A stretch of 64,000 nt of DNA, taken from contig CM034546.1 of the NCBI GenBank assembly GCA_020055645.1, forward strand, positions 75,826,001 to 75,890,000, in the 5' to 3' direction. A model generated the notes under the pieces. That model did no database searches. It was given only the letters and a program-made list of their open reading frames with translations, and was not told the DNA's origin. Shown here piece after piece: positions 11,358 through 48,770 of this stretch. The position numbers were made by a program, and so were the translations under genes. Source of the DNA: Tomocerus qinae. Lineage: Eukaryota; Arthropoda; Collembola; Entomobryomorpha; Tomoceridae. How positions within the stretch are numbered: position 1 is the first letter of the stretch; every line of letters begins with the position of its first letter.

Positions 11358-11626
11358 GAAACAAAATTGATTGGCAAAATAAAAGAAAACCCACACTTTT
11401 GTTATTATTAACAGAAAGGTACCAACATTTAAGGACTTTTTAATGGTCATTATTATAGTGCCATCCATTTTTTGTCATAAACGTCTGGTCTTTAAAATTA
11501 CATTAGTCAGTTTGCATAAATGGGCCTTTGCCCATTCATAGTATAAATCTTTGGGCTTTGCCAATTCAGCACTTTTAACATCACTTGCACTTGTGATAAT
11601 TATTTGTACTGTTAGTTAATTACCCT

Positions 11627-12110
11627 TCGTGCTTTCTGTACTAGAAATGTGGAAATCACTTTTTGTGCTTTCTGGGCTGGAATTACGGGAATCACTTTTT
11701 GTACTTTCTGTACTGGAAATGCTGGAATCGCCTTTTGTGCTTTCTGTACTGGAAATGCTGGAATCGCATTTTGTGCTTTCTGTACTGGAAATGCTGGAAT
11801 CGAATTTTGTGCTTTCTGTGCTGGAAATGCTTGAATCGGGTTTTGTGCTTTCTGTACTGGAAATGCTGGAATCGCCTTTTGGGCTTTCTGTACTGGAAAT
11901 ACTGGGATCATTTTTTGTGCTTTCTGTGTTGGGAATGCTGGAATCATTTTTTGTGCTTTCTGTACTGGAAATGCTGGAATCGCCTTTTGTTCTTTTTGTA
12001 CTGGAAATGCAGGAATCATTGTTTATGCTTTCGTTACTGGAAATGCGGGAATCATTGTTTATGCTTTCGTGGAAATGCGGGAATCACTATTTGTGCTTTT
12101 GTGTACTGAA
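11627..12110 (-). repeat. 36-bp minisatellite, about 13 copies
   Basis: The plus-strand unit is CTTTCTGTACTGGAAATG followed by CTGGAATCGCATTTTGTG. Because 36 is a multiple of three, frames stay open on both strands, including a minus-strand reading with the 12-residue repeat IPAFPVQKAQKA. That minus reading is on the strand of the flanking M13 relic. The lysine/proline pattern is protein-like, but I see no signal peptide or splice context. I therefore list it as satellite DNA, with a repeat protein as an open alternative. Confidence 0.8.
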
Positions 12111-12114
12111 ATGA

Positions 12115-24027: not shown

Positions 24028-26142
24028 ATGGCAGGCAATGGAAATTTGGCCGAAGGTGAAGTGAAGAAATTCAGTGCTATTTGTTCTCTAGCTTTTTCGA
24101 ATGACCTGGTAAGTAAAATGTTTAAATCAAAATTCAAAATTCGATTATGTATCTTTTAAACTAAATTAAATATTGAATTATGTAGGTATAGGTATGTATA
24201 GTTGCATATTCATCATATTTTACTGCGTTATTATGTTAGATATGGGGCTAGTAGAAAAGATTTGAGTCAAGAAATATTTTAAGTAGTTTATTCATTTATG
24301 CCAAAAACCTATAATATTAAATAAGTTATTGACAAAGATGGTTAATATTCCTGTGGGCAATAACACAGTAAAAATTATTAACAGCAAATATAGTGATCAA
24401 TGTAAAAACAGAAAGATAGAAAGAAAACAAATAAGCTGAATTATAAGTTATATTATAAGAATTATAAGTACTTACCTATTTCGACTTCTTATTTCTCATT
24501 TTAACATACAATTTTAAATACATTATTATTAATGTTTTTTAGTATGTAGCCATGACATATTTATTGAGGGTCCCATAAATCACACTTTACGAATAAGGGC
24601 ATCAATAATTTGTGATAATCTGTTTTGTTTTAGATTCTTGATCAGATATTCTCTTTCGTGGACTTTGAAACTCTTAGAAACTGCAGAAGAGTTTGCAGTA
24701 AGTGGAATTCTGTTATTACACCAAGCTTACAAAAGCAAGCCAAGATTGTTTGTCACCGTTTAAGCGTTAGAGTTAGCGCTGAGAATAGTTTTTCTATTTT
24801 CAAAAGCTTAATTTTCCCAGATGAATCGGATTTTAGCTTCACTTCCATTTCGTTGGTTGAAAGAATAGTTTGGAAGCTTTCAGCTGTAGAAAGATTTTTG
24901 TTCAATGAAGGAAGATTTATCACTGAGTTGGAAATAAACAATTTGGCTCTTTCAAATGATGGAGCTCAAGTAGGCGACGCAGTCGACATTTCGGGCCTTG
25001 TGACCCCAACTTTAAAAAAACTAGTACTTAACGGTTCTACAATTGCTTCAGCTGCTTTCCCTCCTGTCCCAGCTTCGTTGAATTGGAGCTCTCTTGCTTC
25101 CATTGACACTTTGTCTGTAAGTGGCATCCGAATAATTTTGAGTGACACTAAAATTTCCCCAGTTGAACTGAATCTGCGAGTAGATAATCAATATTTCAGG
25201 AGCAATGGTATTAAAATGCATTTTGGAAGTTTATTTTTGCAACGGTTTATCAATTTTGATCGCCTGGAGAGATTGATAATCCAGGACACTCATCCTTTAT
25301 GGGACATGGTTGGCACGAAGACACTGAAGAATCTTAAAGTTTATAATCTACACAACATCATTAATTGGGGATCATCTGGATGGACTGTCGAGAATATGGA
25401 GCTACAAGGTACTGCTTTGACAATCAAGACAAGAGTGAATGTCAACGAATTGATTGTACGCAAAAGTCTAGTTGATCTTAATGCTATACCGAAAACCATC
25501 AGAAAATTGGTATTGGAGGACTGCATTGGAGAAATAATTGGCTCTACTGCACCCGTAAATTTTCCAGATTTACAATGCTTAGTCATTATGACTAAAACAT
25601 GTTTGGACATTCCTTCCTATTTCACGCATTGTGACAACATTACAGAAATGAGCATTTGCAATCATCCAGTTGCCGAATTGTACACTGAAAGTTTACCTAA
25701 AAATCTTGAAAAGTTGTTTTTGAATCCGCAATACAGCATCGTAGGAACTCGAGCAACCAAGTTGGATTATCTTGTTTTGGCTGATCGTCATCCAAATGAC
25801 ATGGATGGGAGGGAACTATCCCACTTGCCTGCAAAACATCTGGTTTTTCTGAATTGCACTTGGGGACATGTAAATTTCAATGATTATTGCGTTCGGAAGC
25901 TTACCCAAATTTCTCAAAATTTGTGCGAGACGGTCACTGTTGGTCCATTTTCTTGGGATGCTGTAAACAAAAAAAAATTCACGGAATCGACCTTCAGTGA
26001 TTACATACTCACTGGAGAAGGGGAAACTGAATATTTTTATGTATTCAAAGCCGGAGTTGGCAAAGTCATTGGTGGATACTTGGTTCGCCGAAATATTGAC
26101 AACATCGCAAAGCATTGTAAAAAGTACGTTGTAAGCAACTAA
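24028..26142 (+). CDS. F-box protein with long leucine-rich C-terminal region
   Basis: Exons are 24,028-24,108 and 24,634-26,142; the intron has GTAAGT and TTTTAG ends, phase 0, giving 529 residues. The F-box starts at the exon 2 boundary: LDQIFSFVDFETLRNCRRVC then KWNSVI (about residues 28-57). This matches the family plan of IFxxL/V ... L ... CRxVCxxW. F-box proteins bind SKP1 and choose substrates for an SCF ubiquitin ligase. The remaining 460 residues have irregular leucine-rich repeats (LKKLVLNGS, LKNLKVYNL, IRKLVLEDC) and a conserved tail (DMDGRELSHLPAKHL, ETVTVGPFSWD). The gene is paralogous to the one at 46,862-48,770, with the same exon plan. It looks intact. Confidence 0.88.
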
Positions 26143-27738: not shown

Positions 27739-29724
27739 TTAATTAATCGCTGTTACTTGGTTTTTTGAACAGGGCATAATTCGTTCTCTGATATTTAACA
27801 TTGATTGACATACAGTTGCGATACTTTGAAAGATATTTCGGAAAGAAAATTTAGAAAGTACATGACGTAATACTTCCACGAGTAATATGAAAGCGGAGAC
27901 AAGAAATAGATAGCCAGACAAAATAAAAATTGTGTGAATTTTCATATTGAGACTTATGCCTATAGGTTGCTCGTCGTTGTATTTGATTTCCAAATAAGAG
28001 ATTTTAGACGGGAGGTAGAGTTTATATAAATATTGGTCTTTCCAATTATTTAAAAATCCTTTGTCTAACATTTGTTGAAAATAGGAATGAAAATTGTAGC
28101 GAAAACACTTTTCAAAGTAATAGCTAAGTGGCTGTGTGATTGCAATTTCTTTGGTTGTCATACACACTCCGTCGGTTAAAAGATTAGTAGGGATTAATGG
28201 AATGAAATATTTTCCGCCTTGTGCATCGACGAGATTAAATAATTTCATTGAGTAATTAGTAAGTAATTTGAAACTAGCTTGGTCAAAGGAGTAACTCTTG
28301 TTAATGAAACTTTTCGCGGATTTCTCCGTTTGCCAATTATATTTGTAAATACTCGTATTCATTATTTTCAGTAATTTATTTAATCTAAAGACATCCGTTT
28401 TGTCTTGATACAAACTTCTCCGCTGGTCTTTCTGCAGTAATAGTTTGTAGTTATTTTCCAAGAGTTCTTTAAAATCCCAAAACTGTCTTCTTTCTGGAGG
28501 AACGACAATTTCGCTGGTAATATAAGTTCCATACTGAATAGTAATTACAAATCCCATTACTACTATTATAAGGTAGAGAATATTTTTTCTATTGTAAAAT
28601 GCAGACTGATCTAGAAGTACGGATATTATCGAAATAAAAATGAAATCGACTTTTTTGTAAAGTGTTGAGCCATTGGTCGTTGTAATAAACAAAAGTAAAA
28701 ATGAAATTGGAAATAAAGAAAAAATTAATATCCAGCAATATTCATCAAATGTTCTCTGAATTAAAACCGTGAGATGTACGTCAAGATATTGAGATCTGGA
28801 CTCGCAGTAATATGGAATCATTGTATCGAAAGATTCAATGAAAATCGTCATTTCTGGTTCATTGTAGTTATAAGTGGAGATATATTTTCCCAACATTTGA
28901 ATATTTCCACAGCTTTGTGATACAAATCCGCGTCTTGGTATCATTTTTCTATTTGTATACAGTGCAGTGAAATTTAATCTGTCTCCCATTGTCGAAACTG
29001 CTCTGAAGGAATTACGACAGTCATAATTTGATTTAATTATAGAATAAATACTTTCCTTGCATTTTGGAATAATTTCATTTCTGTCCATTTGGAATTCAGA
29101 AGTGATGCCTCCAATAATTATTCCGTGCAGATGTCCGTTGAAACTATTCCAAATTCTCTCCCAGCCTTCTCCCAAGGTAGTGGATTCGATTTCTTGGAAG
29201 GGAGGATAATAGTCCCAACGCCAGTCTCTGTAAAGGTGCACGGTGAAAGCTGAAAGACTCTCCGAACTTTCGATGACAAGTAAAAATAGTGGAGTAGTCA
29301 ACTCTTCCTTTAAGAATAAATGCCAAAAGCGATTCATCCTCGATATTTTACCTACGTCGTAGACAATAATGAATGTGGAAGTGCCTCGGTTAACTTCTGT
29401 GCCAAAAAATCGACTCAGTTTATCGAAAGAGTAGTCTGGCTCCATGATAATATTTACACTGCAACGGCTATTCGACAAATCCCGTGGATTGTATTCGTCT
29501 CTGCCATAAGCTGATTTATTGTAATCGGAAGTTGCTACCGTCCATGGCTGGTTGTTTTGATTCGCCAATAAAAATTCTGTCTTCCACAAAGAATTTTTGA
29601 AGTTGACCATGTTGAAGTCGCAATTTTTATAAAATGACAAATTTTGGAAGCAATGAGCGAATTTAAAGGAAATAAAAATCCATAGCAAGAGTGCCTCGAA
29701 ATAGTTAATTCTTTCCACACCCAT
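27739..29724 (-). CDS. Divergent ionotropic receptor (IR)
   Basis: A single-exon ORF. I choose the Met at 29,724 because it is followed by a signal-peptide-like run (YFEALLLWIFISFKFAHC); this gives 661 residues, a normal IR length. The open frame extends upstream to 29,877. Order: extracellular N-terminal region, S1 half, TM1 (CWILIFSLFPISFLLLFI), pore-like VDFIFISIISVLLDQS, TM2 (ILYLIIVVMGFVITIQYG), S2 half with the EIAITQPLSYYFEKCF segment, and TM3 (IHTIFILSGYLFLVSAFILL). This is the layout of ionotropic glutamate-receptor-derived chemoreceptors in the dendritic membrane of sensory neurons. The glutamate-binding Arg/Thr/Asp residues are not clearly kept, as in divergent IRs. No stop or frameshift is present. 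Confidence 0.82.
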   Translation of the reverse strand: MGVERINYFEALLLWIFISFKFAHCFQNLSFYKNCDFNMVNFKNSLWKTEFLLANQNNQPWTVATSDYNKSAYGRDEYNPRDLSNSRCSVNIIMEPDYSFDKLSRFFGTEVNRGTSTFIIVYDVGKISRMNRFWHLFLKEELTTPLFLLVIESSESLSAFTVHLYRDWRWDYYPPFQEIESTTLGEGWERIWNSFNGHLHGIIIGGITSEFQMDRNEIIPKCKESIYSIIKSNYDCRNSFRAVSTMGDRLNFTALYTNRKMIPRRGFVSQSCGNIQMLGKYISTYNYNEPEMTIFIESFDTMIPYYCESRSQYLDVHLTVLIQRTFDEYCWILIFSLFPISFLLLFITTTNGSTLYKKVDFIFISIISVLLDQSAFYNRKNILYLIIVVMGFVITIQYGTYITSEIVVPPERRQFWDFKELLENNYKLLLQKDQRRSLYQDKTDVFRLNKLLKIMNTSIYKYNWQTEKSAKSFINKSYSFDQASFKLLTNYSMKLFNLVDAQGGKYFIPLIPTNLLTDGVCMTTKEIAITQPLSYYFEKCFRYNFHSYFQQMLDKGFLNNWKDQYLYKLYLPSKISYLEIKYNDEQPIGISLNMKIHTIFILSGYLFLVSAFILLVEVLRHVLSKFSFRNIFQSIATVCQSMLNIRERIMPCSKNQVTAIN

Positions 29725-30855
29725 TGTGTACAACTTACTAATTAGCAGAGCTATACAGAAGATACAGAAAAAATAAGAAACATTATTATATTGTTTGTTT
29801 GAATGGTATAACATAAATTCAATATAGAAACTGCTTTGTGTTCTCTTTTCCACCATGACTATGGATGCCAAACACAAATATATAGTAATTTAATGGTTTA
29901 TAAATAGTACCTAATATTCCTATAGTTGTATATGGAAGCAGACTTGGGAGCGATTTAATTAATTTAGGGCTTATTTATAAGCCTATCTCTTGTTGAGATA
30001 CAGTATGTGCAAAAAATTACCAAAAAACAAGTCTCACTAAATGAGATGATACAGAGGCTACCTTTAACGATCATTGTGTCACTTGTGATTTGGTCTCCTA
30101 TATTATTCCTATGTATTTTACACGAACTTTTCAATTGTAATTATGAATACAAAATAAAATTTTAACCCCTCTATAAATTGTTTAAACGAATTTATTTGTC
30201 TTACTGTCATAACATGACAAAATTTTTAATGGTATACAATCTATATAAACATTCTAAATATTTCCTGGAAATCCAATTGTCGCGTGCGTCTGCTTAATGT
30301 TTAGTCTTCCAGTCCACTAATAAATAGGATTCTTTATTTACTAGATATTTAATCCTATTGTCAATGATTTTACTCCGAATATTTTTCCATGAAATACAAA
30401 TGTATATTGAAGAGTATAATAAGATTCTTAAACCTTTAAATAACCAAAAAGCACCTATTTTGTAATTTTGATAGACGAAAAGGCATTATGCCGTGTAGTC
30501 ATTTTTGCAGTGCTGTAGTAACCTCATTTAGCTCCGCTAACAACAGATAACTTTTCGTTAAACAAATTTTTAATGAAAAGGTGTTTATGTACGTATGTTT
30601 ATATGTATGTTTATGTACAGTTCCGCTTTATGATTTTTGGGAATTTTAGGCAGAGGCTATATAATCAAAATTAGATAAATGTGAGTAAAAATAGCATACA
30701 TTTTTGAGATGGAACTTATGGGGGATCCTAAGTAAAGTATTGAAACGAATCATTACTGTTTTAATTAATCAATATAGTCTGGTATTAGATATTTTGGGGC
30801 CGGAAAATCGGAAAACAATTATTCCTGCTAGTTCATCGGAAATTGATGTGACGAA
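29725..30855. other. Intergenic, IR upstream region
   Basis: AT-rich with no supported exon. At about 30,590-30,615, GTTTATGTACGTATG/TTTATATGTATG forms a short tandem motif. Confidence 0.45.
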
Positions 30856-38745: not shown

Positions 38746-38809
38746 TGCATAGTACGTTCGATTTCTCCTTGGTGAAAGCATGACTTATTTTTGTACATTT
38801 TATTATGCG

Positions 38810-39283
38810 TGTAAGAGTGTGCTTCGACCCCTTCTCAGTCACCCTCTTACCCCACCGCACCACCTCACCTAAGACAACGTATAATCTAAGGAACCACGTC
38901 CGCCAACAGTCAGTTGCTCTCTGGACTGGAACCTGAACATACATCTATTGACTTGTATCATTCTATTATCATTCTCAGTATCATTCTCTTATTCCAAAGT
39001 ATATTTATCATTGATTCACATTACACTTTATTGGTCTCACAATTTACTTGCTAAATAAACTTTCCTTCCGTGTTTGCTACCAACTCCACTTGCGTTGTTC
39101 TCCCACTGACATTTCACATTTCTAAGTATTTCGGTCACATTCAATCACAATACAATTCATCTCAGTTATTATTCGTATCCCACCTTCTTCCGCATATCCG
39201 GTAATCACACTTGAACCTTGTAACACTCATTAAGAGTAGTCGTCACTACCTTATTGAGCATAACTGGATAGACCATCCTTTCA
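38810..39283 (+). repeat. 5' LTR, 474 bp
   Basis: It begins TGTAAGAGTGTGCTTCGACC and ends CCATCCTTTCA. It carries an AATAAA (CTAAATAAACTTTCC, about 39,050) that may serve as the polyadenylation signal. It matches the 3' LTR base for base as far as I can read. Confidence 0.95.
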
Positions 39284-39285
39284 AC

Positions 39286-39302
39286 TGGCGCCTCCAACCC
39301 GG
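39286..39302 (+). promoter_or_regulatory. Primer-binding site of the LTR element
   Basis: TGGCGCCTCCAACCCGG lies 2 bp inside the 5' LTR boundary. Starting with TGG (pairing with the CCA tail of a tRNA) is the standard position and form of a minus-strand primer site. The donor tRNA was not identified. Confidence 0.8.
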
Positions 39303-39470
39303 TTTTGTTTCACCGTTTTGCGATAGAACAGGTGTGCAAACCATTCATTTTTGATTACCAATTGTGATTATTTTAAGTAAAAATTTCTTGGAGTAAACTG
39401 GAGCACACGAACCAGAAAGTAAGTAAAGCTTTTATAAATCTATATTTGGGTACTCACAGGTATAAAAATT

Positions 39471-39690
39471 AAATATTTCAGTGCAGAACGTGTTGATAGC
39501 GTGATCCTGAAATATAAGAGTAATTAAATATTTCAGTGCAGAACGTGTTGAAAGCGTGATCCTGAAATATAAGAGTAATTAAATATTTCAGAGCAGAACG
39601 TGTTGAAAGCGTGATCCTGAAATATAAGAGTAATTAAATATTTCAGAGCAGAACGTGTTGAAAGCGTGATCCTGAGATACGAGTGTAAGA
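39471..39690 (+). repeat. 55-bp tandem repeat in the element leader, four copies
   Basis: The unit is AATATTTCAGTGCAGAACGT, then GTTGAAAGCGTGATCCTGAA, then ATATAAGAGTAATTA, at 55-bp spacing. It lies between the primer-binding site and the first ORF, where packaging or transcription signals usually sit. ATATTTCAG and CTGAAATAT within a unit can pair. Confidence 0.85.
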
Positions 39691-39740
39691 GTAACCAAAT
39701 ATACGATCCTTTTAAATTCCTATTTTCTAAATAATTTTCA

Positions 39741-40034
39741 ATGAAAGAAGTCGTACTTCAATTAAATTTAGTTAACACTTTGCCAAGAGTACAGATTCTA
39801 GAAAAGGAAACGGTAATCGAGTTAGTCAAGCAGTCTAGTGGGAATTTTCCTATTGAAGTTAATCAAGTAAAAAGTAGCCTAACTATAAGAATAACTCATT
39901 TATTTACAACTTTTCAGTGTACAACATTGGTCGAGAACATCAGAATTTCATTGAATAGAGAATTACAAAAGTCACTAATTAATTTTTCAGTCATTCATAT
40001 AGATAACAGACTTCCGTCCGAATTGGGTTATTGA
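39741..40034 (+). CDS. Small leader ORF of the LTR element
   Basis: A 97-codon ORF starts MKEVVLQLNLVNTLPRVQIL and ends at TGA 40,032-40,034. It is in the same frame as the Gag ORF, with two stops (TGA, TAA) and 15 bases between them. I do not recognise a domain. It may be a separate accessory protein or the severed N-terminus of Gag. Confidence 0.4.
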   Translation: MKEVVLQLNLVNTLPRVQILEKETVIELVKQSSGNFPIEVNQVKSSLTIRITHLFTTFQCTTLVENIRISLNRELQKSLINFSVIHIDNRLPSELGY

Positions 40035-40049
40035 GGTATAACTTAATTA

Positions 40050-41024
40050 ATGTCAAGTCGAGAAGAGAGATATCATCGTAGAAACAACCCTGACCACATC
40101 GAAAATCAACAAAGGTTGATTGAGCAGAATCGAAGAAGAAGAGGTGGGGGTAATCGACGACAGTCAGATCCAGTATCCAGAGAGGGCCAACTCTTTCCGT
40201 TGTTCTTCGAGATGGAGGAGCAAGGAAACCATGTACAGAATGTAATAAACGAAGTGATTGGGGCAGCTAGAGACGAAGAAATTCCTCGAATTCCGCCATT
40301 GATGAACAATGAGCAAGCGGAAAATCGAAACGAAGTGAGTCCTAGACAGGCGCCACGAGCAGCAGCCAATCAGAGAGAGAGGTTAAGACCAGATAATGAA
40401 AGACATAACAGGCAAGAATATCCTAATCTAACACTTAACATAATTCAACAGCAACAAGCACAGATAGCCCAGCTTATAGATTTACTTAGACACCAACCAA
40501 GGTATGAACAAGCAGTTCAACAACCGGTTATGAACCAACAGGCACCAAGGCAATTACCATTTCCTATAGCAAATTCTAATATTCCAATTCCAAAGTATAA
40601 TTCTAATACACAGACGGCAGCTAATTACTTAGTCGATGTCGAAGCTTATTTCAGAAGTCAACATTATACTCGGGACAGCTGGATTTACATGATGTCAACC
40701 GTTATCACTAAGGAGACAAAGGCCTGGTACGACTACGTTGTTCAACCACATTGGGTATGGGAAGATTTTAGAGAAGCTTTTATCAATAAATTCGATACAT
40801 GGCTAGAAAGAAATAAGCGTACTCAACACCTAATTACCAAAGTTCAAGGCGAGAAGGAAAATGTAGAAAAGTTCGTCTGGGAGATGGTCAGACTGGCAAG
40901 GCAAGTATTCCCTGATGAACCTGAGGCTGAAAGCGTTAGACGATACAGATATCTATGCCGGGCAAAACTTACGTCATCGATCCATTTCCTATTGGCATGC
41001 AAGAATTTATTAAGACTGATTTAA
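40050..41024 (+). CDS. Gag capsid-region protein of the LTR element
   Basis: 324 residues. The N-terminal third is Arg/Gln-rich (RRRRGGGNRRQ, QQQQAQIAQL). From about residue 185 there is a Retrotrans_gag-like domain: TAANYLVDVEAYFRSQHY, then TKAWYDYVVQ, W.WEDFREAFINKFDT and later EKFVWEMVRLARQVF. This is the capsid of a Ty3/gypsy-type Gag, which builds the particle that packages element RNA. After about residue 300 the frame leaves the Gag-like text and runs to TAA at 41,022-41,024, overlapping the next ORF in the -1 frame. No zinc knuckle lies in this frame. Confidence 0.8.
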   Translation: MSSREERYHRRNNPDHIENQQRLIEQNRRRRGGGNRRQSDPVSREGQLFPLFFEMEEQGNHVQNVINEVIGAARDEEIPRIPPLMNNEQAENRNEVSPRQAPRAAANQRERLRPDNERHNRQEYPNLTLNIIQQQQAQIAQLIDLLRHQPRYEQAVQQPVMNQQAPRQLPFPIANSNIPIPKYNSNTQTAANYLVDVEAYFRSQHYTRDSWIYMMSTVITKETKAWYDYVVQPHWVWEDFREAFINKFDTWLERNKRTQHLITKVQGEKENVEKFVWEMVRLARQVFPDEPEAESVRRYRYLCRAKLTSSIHFLLACKNLLRLI

Positions 41025-42169
41025 AGACTCTTCTTGAGAATCCTCATATTATCAAAATCACACACGGAGCCGGAAACGACATTCGCCACCTACAACGGGA
41101 CTTCGATATATTTATCGTCGGACTTATTGACTTGCAATTCGTTTACCAACACTTTACAGGTCATACTCAACTGATTGGATTCCAGAAACTATACCAATGG
41201 GCGTTTCCAAATCATCCCACTCCAGATAAACTTCCACAACTTTCGGACTGGACGATAAGACCACTCCATCCCAGACAAATGGAATATGCTGTGCACGATA
41301 GCGGCTTAATTCTAAAAGTTTGGGACAAACTACTTCCGAGGATAATAGCAGATTATCAGAACATTGTACCGGGTTTTGATACATTCATTCCTATCGATAA
41401 ATCTATTTCTTTAACTAGAGTATGCTATTCATTTCCAGTACGTAAATCTCATCTTGATTCTACTTACTATAAGACTCTAACAGCTGATGACCAATCTTTA
41501 TTCACTGAACTGTTTTACTGGAGGAGAAACACAGCAAAATTACTAGACGAAGCGGAGACTACTATTATATCGACTTACGAGCTCTCCAGAATTGCCAAAA
41601 AGAAACCTGACCTGCAGGAACTATCATCTCCAACAAACTATAAGTACTCCACAGCTATCATTCCTCATCTCTCTCAGATCATCCAAATTCTGAATCCTGA
41701 AGAAGAAGAAATGACGACCGAGTACTACGAACTTTTAACCAGTACCAACGGAGCAGAGCAGCTAACTCCAATTTCTCCCGTTCCGAGACTTTTTGATGAA
41801 GATCATTCAGACGACGACGTACTCGAGCTTGATGTCGAATCGAACGAGTTTGCTGACAACCCTTTCAAGGATAAGAAGTGCAGAAGGTGCCAAGAAGTAG
41901 GCCACTACGCTAAATCCTGTACAAACCCAAGGAACAACCAAGCAACAAGACAGTACCGCAGACAGTTTGGAAATGTTCGAGACAAGCAAAATAAAAAGAG
42001 GAACAGCAGACAGCAAAATGCACGGATAGACAAGGCTTTCGCGAAAGTTATGGACCATCTTAAGCAGAAGACCAGCAGCGTACCCAACGTTCAGAGCGAG
42101 GGAGGTTGTAAGAGTGTGCTTCGACCCCTTCTCAGTCACCCTCTTACCCCACCGCACCACCTCACCTAA
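40940..42169 (+). CDS. Rrp6/RNase D-like exonuclease + HRDC + CCHC knuckle ORF
   Basis: The -1 frame opens after TAG 40,937-40,939; the first ATG is 40,955 (404 residues, TAA-less overlap with the 3' LTR, ends 42,169). It opens TIQISMPGKTYVIDPF, which fits a DEDDy fold just after Exo I. Exo II follows (HGAGNDIRHLQRDF, Asp42), then QLSDWTIRPLHPRQMEYAVH with D115 giving Tyr111-x3-Asp115 of Exo III, then an HRDC-like part (LFTELFYWRRNTAKLLDEAE, about 182-245). This order is that of Rrp6/EXOSC10. An acidic linker precedes CRRCQEVGHYAKSC (CX2CX4HX4C, about 309-322) and a basic tail. The Exo I Asp-x-Glu is absent, so nuclease activity is doubtful. Expression would need a -1 frameshift or separate initiation. 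Confidence 0.78.
   Translation, partial: TIQISMPGKTYVIDPFPIGMQEFIKTDLKTLLENPHIIKITHGAGNDIRHLQRDFDIFIVGLIDLQFVYQHFTGHTQLIGFQKLYQWAFPNHPTPDKLPQLSDWTIRPLHPRQMEYAVHDSGLILKVWDKLLPRIIADYQNIVPGFDTFIPIDKSISLTRVCYSFPVRKSHLDSTYYKTLTADDQSLFTELFYWRRNTAKLLDEAETTIISTYELSRIAKKKPDLQELSSPTNYKYSTAIIPHLSQIIQILNPEEEEMTTEYYELLTSTNGAEQLTPISPVPRLFDEDHSDDDVLELDVESNEFADNPFKDKKCRRCQEVGHYAKSCTNPRNNQATRQYRRQFGNVRDKQNKKRNSRQQNARIDKAFAKVMDHLKQKTSSVPNVQSEGGCKSVLRPLLSHPLTPPHHLT
42094..42106 (+). promoter_or_regulatory. Polypurine tract
   Basis: GAGCGAGGGAGG lies directly before the 3' LTR (42,107). This is the expected primer for plus-strand synthesis. The exonuclease-CCHC ORF reads through it into the LTR. Confidence 0.75.
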
Positions 42170-42580
42170 GACAACGTATAATCTAAGGAACCACGTCCGC
42201 CAACAGTCAGTTGCTCTCTGGACTGGAACCTGAACATACATCTATTGACTTGTATCATTCTATTATCATTCTCAGTATCATTCTCTTATTCCAAAGTATA
42301 TTTATCATTGATTCACATTACACTTTATTGGTCTCACAATTTACTTGCTAAATAAACTTTCCTTCCGTGTTTGCTACCAACTCCACTTGCGTTGTTCTCC
42401 CACTGACATTTCACATTTCTAAGTATTTCGGTCACATTCAATCACAATACAATTCATCTCAGTTATTATTCGTATCCCACCTTCTTCCGCATATCCGGTA
42501 ATCACACTTGAACCTTGTAACACTCATTAAGAGTAGTCGTCACTACCTTATTGAGCATAACTGGATAGACCATCCTTTCA
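42107..42580 (+). repeat. 3' LTR, 474 bp
   Basis: Same sequence and length as 38,810-39,283. It is followed by the target duplication TGCG at 42,581-42,584. Confidence 0.95.
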
Positions 42581-42584
42581 TGCG

Positions 42585-45390: not shown

Positions 45391-46374
45391 GTAAGAACTT
45401 TAGGCAGAATTCCAAGAGTTTTAAAGCAATTTTTACATGTATTAAAAAAAAAGGATAAAGGATAGGGGTTTATACTCCAAATTTGGCTCAAGGCACATTC
45501 AGAGTGGTAACGTTACAGGAAAGGGCAACTAGAGAACTTGGAGATCGCTGGCGTTTTATGTGAGTTTATCCCTCAGAACCTTGCCTTATTTCATCAAGGG
45601 CGCTCACTCCAAGTGGTTAGTGCAGGAATAGGAAGGCAGAGCATAGGATAGGAAGCAGAAGCGGTTAGAACAGAAGACTGTTAAGGTACATCCCAATTAC
45701 GGGCATTTCTCCTATCTGACAAGTCAGTTAGTTGAGAGTAGGGAAAACCATTGCATATTAGTAATGTGACTACTAACAGCTGTGGAGAAAAACCCACTCC
45801 ATGTACCAATGTTCCAAGCCACTGACAGGATTCGAACCCTTGACCGCCAGTATGGAATTGAGTGTCCACACCAACAAAATCGGTAAGAACTTTAGGCAGA
45901 ATTCCAAGAGTTTTAAAGCAATTTTTACATGTATTAAAAAAAAAAGGATAAAGGATAGGGGTTTATACTCCAAATTTGGCTCAAGGCACATTCAGAGTGG
46001 TAACGTTACAGGAAAGGGCAACTAGAGAACTTGGAGATCGCTGGCGTTTTATGTGAGTTTACCCCTCAGAACCTTGCCTTATTTCATCAAGGGCGCTCAC
46101 TCCAAGTGGTTAGTGCAGGAATAGGAAGGCAGAGCATAGGATAGGAAGCAGAAGCGGTTAGAACAGAAGACTGTTAAGGTACATCCCAATTACGGGCATT
46201 TCTCCTATCTGACAAGTCAGTTAGTTGAGAGTAGGGAAAACCATTGCATATTAGTAATGTGACTACTAACAGCTGTGGAGAAAAACCCACTCCATGTACC
46301 AATGTTCCAAGCCACTGACAGGATTCGAACCCTTGACCGCCAGTATGGAATTGAGTGTCCACACCAACAGACCA
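45391..46374 (+). repeat. Tandem duplication, two units of about 492 bp
   Basis: Units 45,391-45,882 and 45,883-46,374 are almost identical; one difference is the poly-A run (9 versus 10 A), another TTTATCCC versus TTTACCCC. Each unit holds part of the foldback arm plus the SINE body. The junction sits at CCACACCAACAAAATCGG, next to CACACAACAAAATCGG in the arm, suggesting a microhomology-driven duplication. Confidence 0.85.
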
Positions 46375-46861: not shown

Positions 46862-48770
46862 ATGATGACAACCGAAGGAGACAGTAATAGTCCGGCTGAG
46901 CCTCTACGAGCTATGCAAAATGAATTGGTAACGAAATAAGCATTTAAAATTATTGATAAGTAAATTGAAGTGAAATAGAAAAGACCAGAGATGTTTATTA
47001 TTCAGAAAATGCAGTGTATTTTCTAATTATGAAAATGGTGATTTGATATGGAGCAAATTTTGGATTTTAATCGCCTCTGCATGGTCCCTACTTTTTGTTT
47101 TTGATTTAATGGAATTCAGCATTACATTAATTTTCGGTTGTATTTTTTTTTAATTCTAAACTTTAGCCAGTAATTTATTAGCGGTTAGTGATTAATATTG
47201 TTAATATTAATAAAAAAAATTGGGATCTGATTTGTAATTATAATAGGTTTATTTTCTTGTTCGTGGAAAATTTAAAAATTACTGATGTGTATTATTTTAG
47301 GTACTTCAAAACATCTTCAAATTTGTCAACTTCAAAACCCTGAAAGATTGCAGACTCGTAAGCATAAAATGGAATTTGATTTCCAACTCAAGTTTTAAGA
47401 AACGAGCCAAAGTCGTTTGTCAAAAGTCACATTTCTCGATTAGTATTTGTTTTAACGATTTTAAAGATATATTTTTCCGGGATGGATCTGCATTTCCTTA
47501 TTCTTCACTTGAGCTTGTTGGCAATCTACAGTGGAAAATTTCCGATTTGCAAAGTTTTTTTCTTAACGAAGGAAAATCAGTTATAGATTTGAAAATTAAA
47601 GACTTGAGCCTGGTTGATGATAATTTACAGGCATTAACGAGTTTTGACGTGGCGTCATTTATAACTTCGTATTTGAAACGTGTAATTATTGAGAATAGCT
47701 CTCTTTATAATGATGAAACTACAAACTTGTTAAATATCAACGCACTAGCCTCCTTAGATTACATTCATTTGTGTGGCTGTCATATCACTTTAAGTGATAA
47801 TTTCCAAATTTCGCCAAAAGAATTTTCCATTCAAGGTTCCAATAAATATTTTCGCAACGGAACTGAACTGAGAATACGTGAAATTTCTATATGGCAGTTT
47901 GTAAATTTACAACGGCTTGAAAAATTGACATTCGGTGATGGCAATCTTTCATTGGATTTAAGTGGCACCAAGTCACTAAAGTCTCTTACGCTTATTGATG
48001 TTGACGGTGAAGAAATTGGAAATTGGGTGACATCGGAATGGCGAATTAACAGACTAGACGTAAAAGGATTTTATTTCCAAAGGACACGGATGACAATCTA
48101 CGAATTGAAAATATGGCGAAATCTTGTAGTCAACATTGCATTGTTGCCAACAACTGTGGAAAAATTAATATTAGTGGAATGTGAGAAACTAGTCGGCTGT
48201 GGCGACATAAATTTGCCACATTTAAAATCTTTAGTCTTGCGGAGAAACGAATTCATCAATTTCCCTTCCTGTTTCAAAAGTTGTAGTACCATAACGGATA
48301 TTGCTATCTATAATAATCATGCATTCAGAGGAGGGAAGTTAAACGTCGATAATTTACCAAGCAATGTCAGTAAATTGCTGACAAATACTCATTTCGTTTC
48401 TGGAACCAGAACAAGTCAATTAGACACTCTTGTTCTTGTTGATTATCCACCAGGCGACATGGATGGCAGGGAAATGTCACAATTGCCTGCAAAACATCTA
48501 ATTTATCTAAATATTGCAAATCCTTTGAAGTTCGACTATGCTTATGTTAAAAAAATCATAACATTTTCCGAAAATGGATTATGTGAGTCCGTCACAGTTG
48601 GACCATTTGGGTGGGACAAAGCTAGCAAACACAACTTGGAAAATTCCTGCTTACGTCAATATGTAGGTGAATCGGAATTCTACACATTCAAAGCAGGACA
48701 CGTCAATGCTAACAGTGGATTCTTCGTTCGTGAAAATATTAAAAGTTTGTTACCCGAGAAAGAAAACTGA
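46862..48770 (+). CDS. F-box protein, paralogue of the gene at 24.0 kb
   Basis: Exons are 46,862-46,927 and 47,301-48,770, phase 0 (donor GTAACG, acceptor TTTTAG), 511 residues from the first of two in-frame ATGs. The F-box crosses the start of exon 2 (LQNIFKFVNFKTLKDCRLVS then KWNLIS). A leucine-rich region (LKSLTLIDVD, VEKLILVECE, LKSLVLRRN) and the same tail blocks as the first F-box gene follow (DMDGREMSQLPAKHL, CESVTVGPFGWD). The position of the intron just before the F-box is shared, so the two are duplicates of one ancestor. The role is substrate choice for an SCF ubiquitin ligase. No lesions are seen. Confidence 0.87.

Follow-up and report, generated by a model that had tools for sequence, protein, structure and literature searches.

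Enzyme-coding extra open reading frames (ORFs) are already known in LTR retrotransposons. In bdelloid rotifers, the LTR retrotransposons Juno and Vesta carry a third ORF (ORF3) for a DEDDy exonuclease (Rodriguez, Kenefick and Arkhipova 2017, PMC5408684). These ORF3s, which were acquired at least twice, are RNase D-like, with the motif DEDD changed to DEED, and are closer to each other than to cellular homologues; a Cys-His-Cys motif is described in Vesta2 and Vesta5, and a dUTPase is encoded by three of the four rotifer lineages (PMC5408684). The passages of that paper which treat the extra ORFs state no departure from neutrality, name no role and leave open whether the element benefits, and a term search of its main text returned no mention of HRDC. 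Among the matches listed in the open-licence literature, we found no report of a DEDDy ORF3 layout outside bdelloid rotifers.

The elements of the collembolan Tomocerus qinae reported here vary this described kind. As in Juno and Vesta, the layout is LTR-gag-pol-ORF3, with a DEDDy 3'-5' exonuclease at the usual place of env, and the ORF3s appear nearer to one another than to cellular homologues (PMC5408684). A preliminary description of the locus, made from its sequence, had held that no family with this layout was described, a claim that the rotifer elements contradict (PMC5408684). Going by the description of the rotifer ORF3s in that paper, those of T. qinae are nevertheless set apart by a strongest match to Rrp6, with an HRDC domain, by a CCHC motif that all the aligned open ORF3s share, by strong purifying selection on older branches, by their occurrence across one large group of pol genes, and by a conserved ORF0. 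The window, that is, the whole stretch of 64,000 nucleotides that was analysed (contig CM034546.1 of assembly GCA_020055645.1, positions 75,826,001 to 75,890,000, forward strand), very probably holds a deleted copy of such a gag-pol-ORF3 element, whose ORF3 would encode an Rrp6-like protein that selection has maintained and whose nuclease site is intact.

Errantivirus and gypsy are env-bearing insect LTR retroelements. Their env, like ORF3, is a third ORF downstream of pol, and an acceptor-like site precedes the ORF3 ATG in most lineages; however, ORF3 encodes a nuclease-type protein, and a hydropathy scan gave no transmembrane support. Maize Bs1 is an LTR element that carries host genes, and it likewise has cellular-type coding sequence between its LTRs. 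However, capture of the Bs1 type is a one-off, whereas ORF3 has long belonged to an entire group of elements and is kept there by selection.

Anatomy of the window element

The window element (38810–42580) is a single Ty3/Gypsy LTR retrotransposon copy that inserted recently and has undergone an internal deletion. It has the direct LTRs and short target-site duplication of Ty3/Gypsy (Metaviridae) elements, and its LTRs (38810–39283 and 42107–42580) are 100% identical over 474 bp, as the preliminary description had reported. Its features are as follows.

38806–38809, unstranded: target-site duplication TGCG, 5' copy, repeated after the 3' LTR
38810–39283, + strand: 5' LTR, 474 bp, TG...CA, identical to the 3' LTR
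39286–39302, + strand: putative tRNA primer-binding site TGGCGCCTCCAACCCGG, placed directly after the 5' LTR
39412–39741, + strand: 55-bp tandem repeats in the leader (repeat family D1, start-to-start spacing 55)
39419–39424, + strand: leader GTAAGT, a putative 5' splice donor, from a motif scan
39741–40034, + strand: ORF0, 97 aa, a conserved small ORF upstream of gag, from genome matches
40050–41024, + strand: truncated gag ORF, matrix/capsid to about 40939, then an out-of-frame nonsense tail from the joint
40940–40944, + strand: deletion junction ACGAT, a 5-nt microhomology, as aligned with L042 on the gag side and with L022 on the ORF3 side
40940–42169, + strand: 5'-truncated ORF3, an exonuclease-HRDC-CCHC remnant without Exo I and the N-terminal part
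40964–41344, + strand: DNA_pol_A_exo1 match, profile positions 51–172 of 173, with Exo II and Exo III present and Exo I absent
41492–41611, + strand: HRDC-like segment, 19.4 bits, under the Pfam cutoff
41873–41926, + strand: CCHC zinc knuckle of ORF3, a Pfam match
42094–42106, + strand: putative polypurine tract GAGCGAGGGAGGT, placed directly before the 3' LTR
42107–42580, + strand: 3' LTR, 474 bp, identical to the 5' LTR
42581–42584, unstranded: target-site duplication TGCG, 3' copy, matching 38806–38809

Several elements of the preliminary description stand. The ORF at 40940–42169 is confirmed with 409 codons, the last of which fall within the 3' LTR. Its DEDDy-like exonuclease matches DNA_pol_A_exo1 (PF01612) with 63.5 bits, against a cutoff of 23.6 (E=2.7e-17), and the comparison with EXOSC10 that had been called for gave a match to the human protein (E=3.8e-14). 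The proposed HRDC domain stays below its cutoff in the window ORF itself (19.4 bits, cutoff 23.8) and exceeds it in some relatives, such as L040 (33.7 bits). The knuckle is also present (zf-CCHC, 22.7 bits, cutoff 20.8), but it is part of the exonuclease protein and not of Gag. In the window gag ORF, the Retrotrans_gag model scores under its Pfam cutoff (18.4 bits, cutoff 24.1). The window copy should yield no working gag or ORF3 product, as predicted from its sequence, because it has lost Exo I along with the beginning of ORF3 and its gag halts soon past the joint.

ORF0 is free of internal stops in all 17 of its genome matches, the window's own included. No Pfam family matched it above cutoff (the best was a poxvirus poly(A) polymerase model, 18.6 bits, cutoff 27), and its PDB matches were no better than E 0.93. 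Two pol queries had no match in the window, nor did Rfam (at the gathering threshold) and tRNA scans. Genes of the F-box, THAP and C2H2 types neighbour the element.

The deletion joint and the layout of longer copies

In the window, a gag-like ORF, an exonuclease, an HRDC segment and a CCHC knuckle follow one another between identical LTRs, and this order had been read as an exosome nuclease module taken into Gag between capsid and knuckle, and hence as part of the particle protein. However, the gag-like ORF (40050–41024) and the exonuclease ORF (40940–42169) occupy different frames, no slippery heptamer of the form X XXY YYZ begins in 40920–41019, the stretch scanned across their overlap, and the junction sequence occurs only once in the genome, even when up to 3 mismatches are allowed. 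These three results rule out a Gag-exonuclease fusion made by frameshifting. Moreover, Exo I, which the window copy lacks, is present in 18 of 18 open ORF3s, pol sits between gag and ORF3 in copies C3, C4 and L026, and gag and ORF3 are separate ORFs about 0.9 kb apart even in the pol-less copies L040 and C5. A nuclease module within Gag is thus extremely improbable, and the module is instead a separate ORF3, found downstream of pol in longer copies.

The alignments show a deletion of about 5 kb that removed pol and the Exo I motif and left the capsid portion of gag abutting, in a different frame, the middle of the downstream ORF3 gene. The 5' part of the window element is 97.5 and 98.3% identical to L041 and L042, and its 3' part 96.0 and 97.7% identical to L021 and L022; the two sets of alignments overlap at 40940–40952. 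The enzyme looks like part of the coat protein because the element lost its middle: a single deletion, seen once in the genome, left the Gag-like domain layout behind. This case shows that an internal deletion can mimic a domain fusion within one stretch.

In longer copies, the order is LTR-ORF0-gag-pol-ORF3-LTR, with ORF3 in the env position, downstream of protease-RT-RNaseH-IN; a DEDDy ORF3 downstream of pol is the arrangement of the rotifer type. The pol of L026 contains, by Pfam and in order, protease (22.3 bits, under the cutoff of 24.3), RVT_1, RT_RNaseH, Integrase_H2C2 and rve, which is the PR-RT-RNaseH-IN order of Ty3/Gypsy (Metaviridae). Target-site duplications of 4 bp flank other copies as well (CCTT at C3, AAGT at C4 and GCAC at L023). 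The gag frame of C3 and C4 has 503 codons and ends with a knuckle of its own, additional to that of ORF3; its Pfam matches are weak, and the gag knuckle of L026 scores above the Pfam cutoff. As had been proposed, then, an LTR retrotransposon family with an Rrp6-like exonuclease and HRDC exists in many copies: there are 101 match pieces genome-wide, so the objection that the window might hold the only such copy falls away and the core of the idea survives.

The ORF3 protein

As judged from its sequence, ORF3 codes for a complete Rrp6/EXOSC10-type core, a CCHC knuckle and a basic tail. The alignment was made of open ORF3s only, and several of its 18 members are near-duplicates (11 lineages by our grouping). 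Six copies were dropped from it and from the selection analysis: L022, L024 and L034, whose ORF3 is broken; L035 and L036, in which it is split or cut; and L029, which is open but nearly duplicates L027 and reads in another frame over one stretch. All 18 carry Exo I DxE, Exo II D and Exo III YxxxD. The five DEDDy residues D160, E162, D221, Y290 and D294 and the zinc ligands C488, C491, H496 and C501 (L021 numbering) are invariant in 18 of 18, among 26 invariant columns in all, and the CCHC motif and a basic C-terminus are likewise present throughout. The window copy is scored as lacking Exo I because its exonuclease match begins at profile position 51 of 173. In a Pfam scan of nine members, PF01612 was found in all nine, HRDC in six (E up to 0.01; alone, this is a weak call in several) and the CCHC model in three (E 0.01), so that the knuckle is called from its motif.

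A profile of nine sequences (eight ORF3s and the matched protein P0001) was compared with the PDB, where Rrp6 scored highest (187 bits), followed by RNase D (82), a MUT-7 homologue (75), WRN (69), Egalitarian (45) and EXD2 (37). ORF3 has the EXO-then-HRDC order of Rrp6/EXOSC10, and Rrp6 is its best match among the DEDDy families in the PDB; these scores rule out bacterial RNase D or MUT-7 as the closest relative. The N-lobe, EXO and HRDC align to yeast Rrp6 over residues 153–509 (E=7e-54) with all DEDDy residues kept, and the alignment to the yeast protein extends no further than 153–511, stopping after HRDC. In human EXOSC10 (entry 7mqa) the aligned stretch continues to residue 745, so a weak likeness to Rrp6 may extend beyond HRDC. 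The N-terminal PMC2NT domain of Rrp6/EXOSC10 had no match in any of the nine members (Pfam, E up to 0.01), and for lack of this domain ORF3 is classed, provisionally on its domain content, as Rrp6-like rather than as an exosome subunit. It further differs from Rrp6/EXOSC10 in adding the CCHC motif and basic tail. In the mobile elements its ORF runs unbroken, whereas matches to the host EXOSC10 gene come as separate segments that resemble exons.

In the protein database, a single query returned one relative, P0001, and the nine-sequence profile three proteins: P0002 and P0003, both named Rrp6, and the unnamed P0004, which we read as a bacterial RNase D (our own label) and which served as outgroup in the ORF3 tree. 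Among viral contigs, two single-protein queries gave 10 and 3 stretches that fit a pattern, none of them confirmed. An env-like function through a membrane segment was not supported by a hydropathy scan of the 18 ORF3s (best 19-residue stretch of each, 0.80–1.94); only that of L045 exceeds 1.6, and its stretch lies inside the exonuclease domain.

The kept catalytic site suggests that the ORF3 enzyme is probably active as a nuclease. DEDD proteins that act as decoys usually lose catalytic residues. In ORF3, the five catalytic residues are invariant among lineages down to 22% identity, which argues against a role like that of Maelstrom or EXD1, as a decoy that binds RNA but has lost its cutting activity; DEDD folds can lose activity and still bind RNA (PMC5408684), but we regard such a decoy as improbable here.

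Selection, association with pol and possible roles of ORF3

Older ORF3 branches are under purifying selection. Across 14 of the 18 sequences and 357 codons (near-duplicates L027, L028, L031 and L032 left out), a codon model gave an omega of 0.066 (lnL -13097.7; when omega was set to 1, with kappa fixed at 2, lnL was -13725.6), a single-rate value that is only rough because synonymous sites are saturated between families. Pairwise dN/dS is 0.17 for L040/L043 (CI 0.10–0.26) and 0.18 for L025/L026 (CI 0.08–0.35). On recent branches neutrality is possible, given the values for L037/L038 (0.56, CI up to 1.08), L026/L028 (0.48, CI up to 1.28) and L031/L032 (0.53, from three differences).

These recent pairs would be compatible with ORF3 as a cargo gene acquired by chance and drifting without function. 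Such an origin is nonetheless very improbable in view of the omega across lineages, of the association of ORF3 with pol and of the ORF3 branching, which is consistent with the pol identities of five families. ORF3 is tied to one group of pol genes: among the 66 pol loci scored, from 1063 first-look candidates, 42 are followed by an ORF3 match at no more than 6.5 kb and one more has a match at 6.7 kb, and the 23 without ORF3 show 39–41% identity in the RT-side piece. The pairing left out second pieces, LTR-borne pieces and some of the weakest ORF3 rows, and none of the left-out ORF3 rows lies near those 23 loci.

The preliminary description had also supposed that the element took up a gene of its host. 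In the tree, built without near-duplicates L026, L027, L028, L031, L032, L038 and L043, host EXOSC10 clusters with a further two Rrp6s (support 100), and none of the 11 ORF3s falls within that clade; the deeper nodes have supports of 28, 64 and 71. A recent capture of the host EXOSC10 gene is rejected on this grouping, and the case for capture from the present host gene is weak.

The Rrp6 parts outside the EXO-HRDC core contact Rrp47 and the exosome. Joining the exosome would be the less likely benefit of ORF3, because PMC2NT is missing and the yeast Rrp6 match stops after HRDC; judging from this domain content, protection of the element's RNA cycle is most likely the better candidate. The knuckle and basic tail would hold the enzyme on RNA, most likely the element's own, which it would trim or degrade from the 3' end; the likely benefit would be the trimming of element RNA ends or the destruction of small or antisense silencing RNAs. 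That ORF3 acts on the element's own RNA is a reading we hold only tentatively.

Two roles can be weighed within this frame. Nibbler and PNLDC1 are DEDD relatives that function in small-RNA pathways. Mut-7, EXD1 and Maelstrom have been discussed in the same terms (PMC5408684). With such relatives, and with invariant catalytic residues that are in line with activity, ORF3 might be an exonuclease that counters silencing by degrading small RNAs (piRNA, siRNA) or their precursors, or by trimming them too far; however, its sequence is nearest Rrp6 and not MUT-7 (187 against 75 bits), and we consider this role rather unlikely.

ORF3 could instead be a particle-associated RNA-processing enzyme, recruited to element RNA by its knuckle and tail, that trims the 3' ends of RNA or removes RNA while reverse transcription proceeds. 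Apart from the CCHC motif and basic C-terminus of all 18 ORF3s, this role, possible but doubtful in our view, is favoured by the pol-less copies L040 and C5, in which ORF3 is open and dN/dS between the two ORF3s is 0.17. Yet their synonymous distance is higher in ORF3 (0.138) than in the compared part of gag (0.061, 397 codons), and the C5 gag contains a stop; the histories of the two genes may therefore differ by recombination, and selection may have acted in pol-bearing parents.

The chances are about even that a large animal Ty3/Gypsy group uses an Rrp6-derived exonuclease with a zinc knuckle in place of env, as a lasting component of its life cycle that serves either to overcome silencing by small RNAs or in the maturation of its own RNA, with pol-less members keeping it open. 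If so, this would be a retrotransposon lineage with an RNA-decay enzyme, and not an envelope, as its third gene, under long-term purifying selection. One genome here offers many copies of a nuclease ORF whose older branches show clear purifying selection and whose aligned open copies all keep the catalytic and zinc residues, so why a retrotransposon carries an exosome-type nuclease is directly testable.

The ORF3s of LTR elements are typically expressed via spliced messages (PMC5408684), and ORF3 of T. qinae would likewise be translated from a spliced subgenomic RNA, as env is. When leaders were scanned for GTAAGT, GTGAGT and GTATGT, a single GTAAGT was the sole instance in the window, L041 and L042; GTAAGT also occurs twice in the leader of L023 and once in that of L040, and the scan found none in that of L026. 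On the acceptor side, YAG stands immediately 5' of the chosen ORF3 ATG in four of eight lineages (the ATG of lineage D was picked for following the YAG, and an earlier in-frame ATG exists), and two further lineages have CAG 1 and 4 nt upstream of the ATG; in lineages C and F there is no YAG within 4 nt. In L044, CAG is 4 nt upstream of the ORF3 ATG. At the end of gag, UUUAAAC is present in the gag frame in all four cases checked.

An internal deletion in the window element

The exonuclease reading frame lies within an LTR element whose parts are listed below; as the preliminary description had recognized, the LTRs around it are identical.

Parts of the window element (window coordinates)
38810-42580 (+ strand): LTR element with two identical 474-bp LTRs and TGCG at both flanks
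Inside the leader: 55-bp tandem repeats
39741-40034: ORF0, 97 aa, upstream of gag
40050-41024: gag-like ORF; the gag frame ends in a short nonsense tail
40940-42169: reported ORF (exonuclease), its last codons falling in the 3' LTR

Against two longer copies, the 5' part of the element (38810-40952) aligns with leader and gag at 97.5 and 98.3%. The 3' part (40940-42580) aligns, at 96.0 and 97.7%, with the gene adjoining the 3' LTR in those copies. The break falls at ACGAT (40940-40944), within an imperfect 11/13 match counted by eye. From stretch coordinates, the copies on contigs C3 and C4 measure ~8.85 and ~9.07 kb and the window element 3.77 kb, so ~5.1-5.3 kb was lost from the latter. The joint sequence occurs once in the 334-Mb genome (≤3 mismatches allowed), and the scanned overlap of the gag-like and exonuclease ORFs contains no slippery site of the X XXY YYZ form. 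The two-part alignment, the single joint, the frame break and the lack of a slippery site therefore indicate that one internal deletion produced the apparent Gag with exonuclease. The module had first been placed inside Gag, a reading that is not borne out, since in the longer copies the exonuclease gene (ORF3) is also separate. The deletion would be of the microhomology type, which either template jumping by reverse transcriptase or subsequent repair could be expected to leave; the two are indistinguishable here.

The reported ORF clearly matches DNA_pol_A_exo1, in agreement with its initial assignment to the DEDDy-type exonucleases; in the PDB, its closest match is human EXOSC10. Of the HRDC and CCHC segments described at the same time, CCHC was matched, whereas the HRDC match is below threshold in this copy. 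The exonuclease match starts only at profile position 51, and thus the Exo I motif is missing. With two pol proteins as queries, no pol match was found in the window. Without pol and Exo I, and with a truncated gag, this copy is non-autonomous; as it retains its LTRs, a putative primer site and a putative polypurine tract, it could be mobilized, but only by proteins of other copies. Its ORF0 shares 60-67% identity with those of element families B and C, and all 17 genome matches are without internal stop; no Pfam family scored above the cutoff, and the best PDB match was no better than E 0.93.

The ORF3 protein and its expression signals

The relatives are arranged as LTR, ORF0, gag (with its own CCHC), pol, ORF3, LTR; their pol comprises protease (below cutoff), reverse transcriptase (RT), RNase H and integrase. 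The LTR pairs are identical in the C3 (473/473 positions) and C4 (474/474) copies, whose insertions are therefore recent. A TTTAAAC heptamer stands in the gag frame at the end of gag in all four copies checked (L041, L042, L026, and L037). A YAG immediately precedes the ORF3 ATG in four of eight lineages; in two further lineages a CAG ends 1 and 4 nt upstream of the ATG, and lineages C and F have no YAG within 4 nt. In lineage D the ATG was picked for its place after a YAG, and an earlier in-frame ATG is present. The window element and its close copies have a GTAAGT in their leaders; L026 has none there. Given these acceptor-like and leader motifs, expression of ORF3 by splicing is likely.

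Eighteen open ORF3s from this one genome, which we grouped into 11 lineages, share 26 invariant columns; the five DEDDy residues and the four zinc ligands are all among these. All 18 carry a CxxCx4Hx4C motif and a basic C-terminus (the last 80 residues have a net charge of +10 to +24); their best hydropathy windows range from 0.80 to 1.58, except in L045 (1.94, within the nuclease core). That ORF3 binds RNA without cutting it is, in our view, improbable. A profile of nine sequences (eight ORF3s and the metagenome protein P0001) matched yeast Rrp6 over residues 153-509 (E=7e-54, 187 bits), with lower scores for RNase D (82), the MUT-7 homologue (75), WRN (69), Egalitarian (45), and EXD2 (37); in the human EXOSC10 entry 7mqa, the aligned stretch extends to residue 745. 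At E ≤0.01, PF01612 was detected in 9/9 members, HRDC in 6/9, the CCHC model in 3/9 and PMC2NT in none. P0001 (489 aa, from a 4096-bp contig), the sole database relative in a single-protein search, has all three Exo motifs and no CCHC.

Distribution, descent and selection

The pol search gave 91 pieces at 66 loci, a lower bound, since scoring covered 66 of the 1063 first-look candidates. At 42 of these loci, an ORF3 match on the same strand follows within 6.5 kb, so that further exonuclease-bearing copies, for which a search had initially been suggested, do exist; at one more, C1:51228959, it follows at 6.7 kb. None was detected near the remaining 23, in all of which the RT-side piece has 39-41% identity. 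Identity is not a perfect divider: a C17 locus with ORF3 combines a 39% and a 51% piece, and where ORF3 was not detected a second piece can reach 48-50%. A B-family element also forms a head-to-tail array (C1:51209756-51238835), in which ORF0 and pol (three each) and two ORF3s recur at exactly 8330 bp, a third ORF3 match lying 13.4 kb further on. In L026, the 1571 bp that recur are 100% identical.

Identities of pol and ORF3 give the five pol-bearing families the same ranking, in which A pairs with B and then joins C, and D pairs with E. The ORF3 tree has this order too, the pol side resting on identities. The host EXOSC10 gene, matched on C4 in separate exon-like pieces, forms a clade with two further Rrp6 proteins (support 100) that includes none of the 11 ORF3s in the tree; this weakens the earlier idea that a host RNA-decay gene was taken up, as far as the present EXOSC10 gene is concerned. 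As deeper nodes have supports of 28, 64, and 71, one acquisition is not separable from two; the simplest reading would be an old acquisition followed by co-descent with pol.

A single-omega codon model (14 of the 18 ORF3s, 357 gap-free codons) gave omega 0.066 (lnL -13097.7; fixing omega at 1 and kappa at 2 lowered it to -13725.6), a value that is approximate because synonymous sites are saturated between families. Pairwise dN/dS was 0.09 for L021/L023 (synonymous distance ~2.7), 0.17 (0.10-0.26) for L040/L043, 0.18 (0.08-0.35) for L025/L026, 0.22 (0.11-0.39) for L027/L028, 0.26 (0.12-0.53) for L025/L028, 0.48 (0.22-1.28) for L026/L028, 0.53 for L031/L032 (three differences only), and 0.56 (0.29-1.08) for L037/L038. 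Purifying selection is thus clear on the older branches, though not on the youngest, as expected of mobile elements. That ORF3 is chance cargo seems most improbable.

Some relatives are likewise deleted. L023 lacks gag and most of pol, and its ORF3 is open. L040 and the C5 copy (L043/L048) share a layout of LTR, gag region and ORF3 (97.95% over 4049 nt), and neither gave a pol match over the stretch searched; ORF3 is open in both, and the C5 gag has a stop. Two more copies have LTR-borne matches at similar spacing (C4:7972623 and C1:12522758). An ORF3 kept open in pol-less members suggests that it benefits the RNA carrying it. However, between L040 and the C5 copy ORF3 has a larger synonymous distance (0.138) than the part of gag that was compared (0.061; dN/dS 0.40, 397 codons), so recombination with pol-bearing relatives may account for their selection signal.

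Rotifer parallels, possible role and neighboring features

The preliminary description knew of no described family with the layout it proposed, yet DEDDy ORF3s are described in the Juno and Vesta elements of bdelloid rotifers, the nearest case (PMC5408684; restated in PMC5718144, PMC6431247, and PMC6338049). According to that study, DEDDy-type ORFs also occur in rotifer Athena Penelope-like elements, the rotifer ORFs are nearer to one another than to cellular homologues, and intragenomic evolution of the extra ORFs does not depart significantly from neutrality. Compared with the rotifer elements, the T. qinae elements share the overall plan with a DEDDy ORF3, and differ in their Rrp6 affinity with HRDC, the CCHC motif of all aligned open ORF3s, the purifying selection on older branches, and the span of ORF3 over one large group of pol genes. 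Outside rotifers, no DEDDy/Rrp6-type ORF3 was reported among the matches listed in a full-text search of open-licence literature.

What the sequences show are the conserved residues of ORF3, the selection on it, its position and its association with pol. ORF3 would be made from a spliced message, would be enzymatically active, and would be brought to RNA by its knuckle and tail. Its target may be the element's own RNA, which we propose tentatively; a counter-silencing role is only slightly less likely.

Elsewhere in the window, a direct repeat of at least 300 nt (45444-46236; 100% identical, spacing 493 bp) with tRNA-like B-box text, noted by eye, is probably a SINE duplication. Two long ORFs resemble each other by eye (24634-26142, with an F-box, and 47301-48770, with no Pfam match at 0.01). 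A 716-codon ORF (27739-29889, - strand), also without a Pfam match at 0.01, looks by eye like an ionotropic-receptor-type membrane protein. Long ORFs overlapping on both strands at 11616-12114 encode repetitive protein text and apparently derive from a tandem repeat, and a DDE_Tnp_4 transposase fragment lies at 570-1079.
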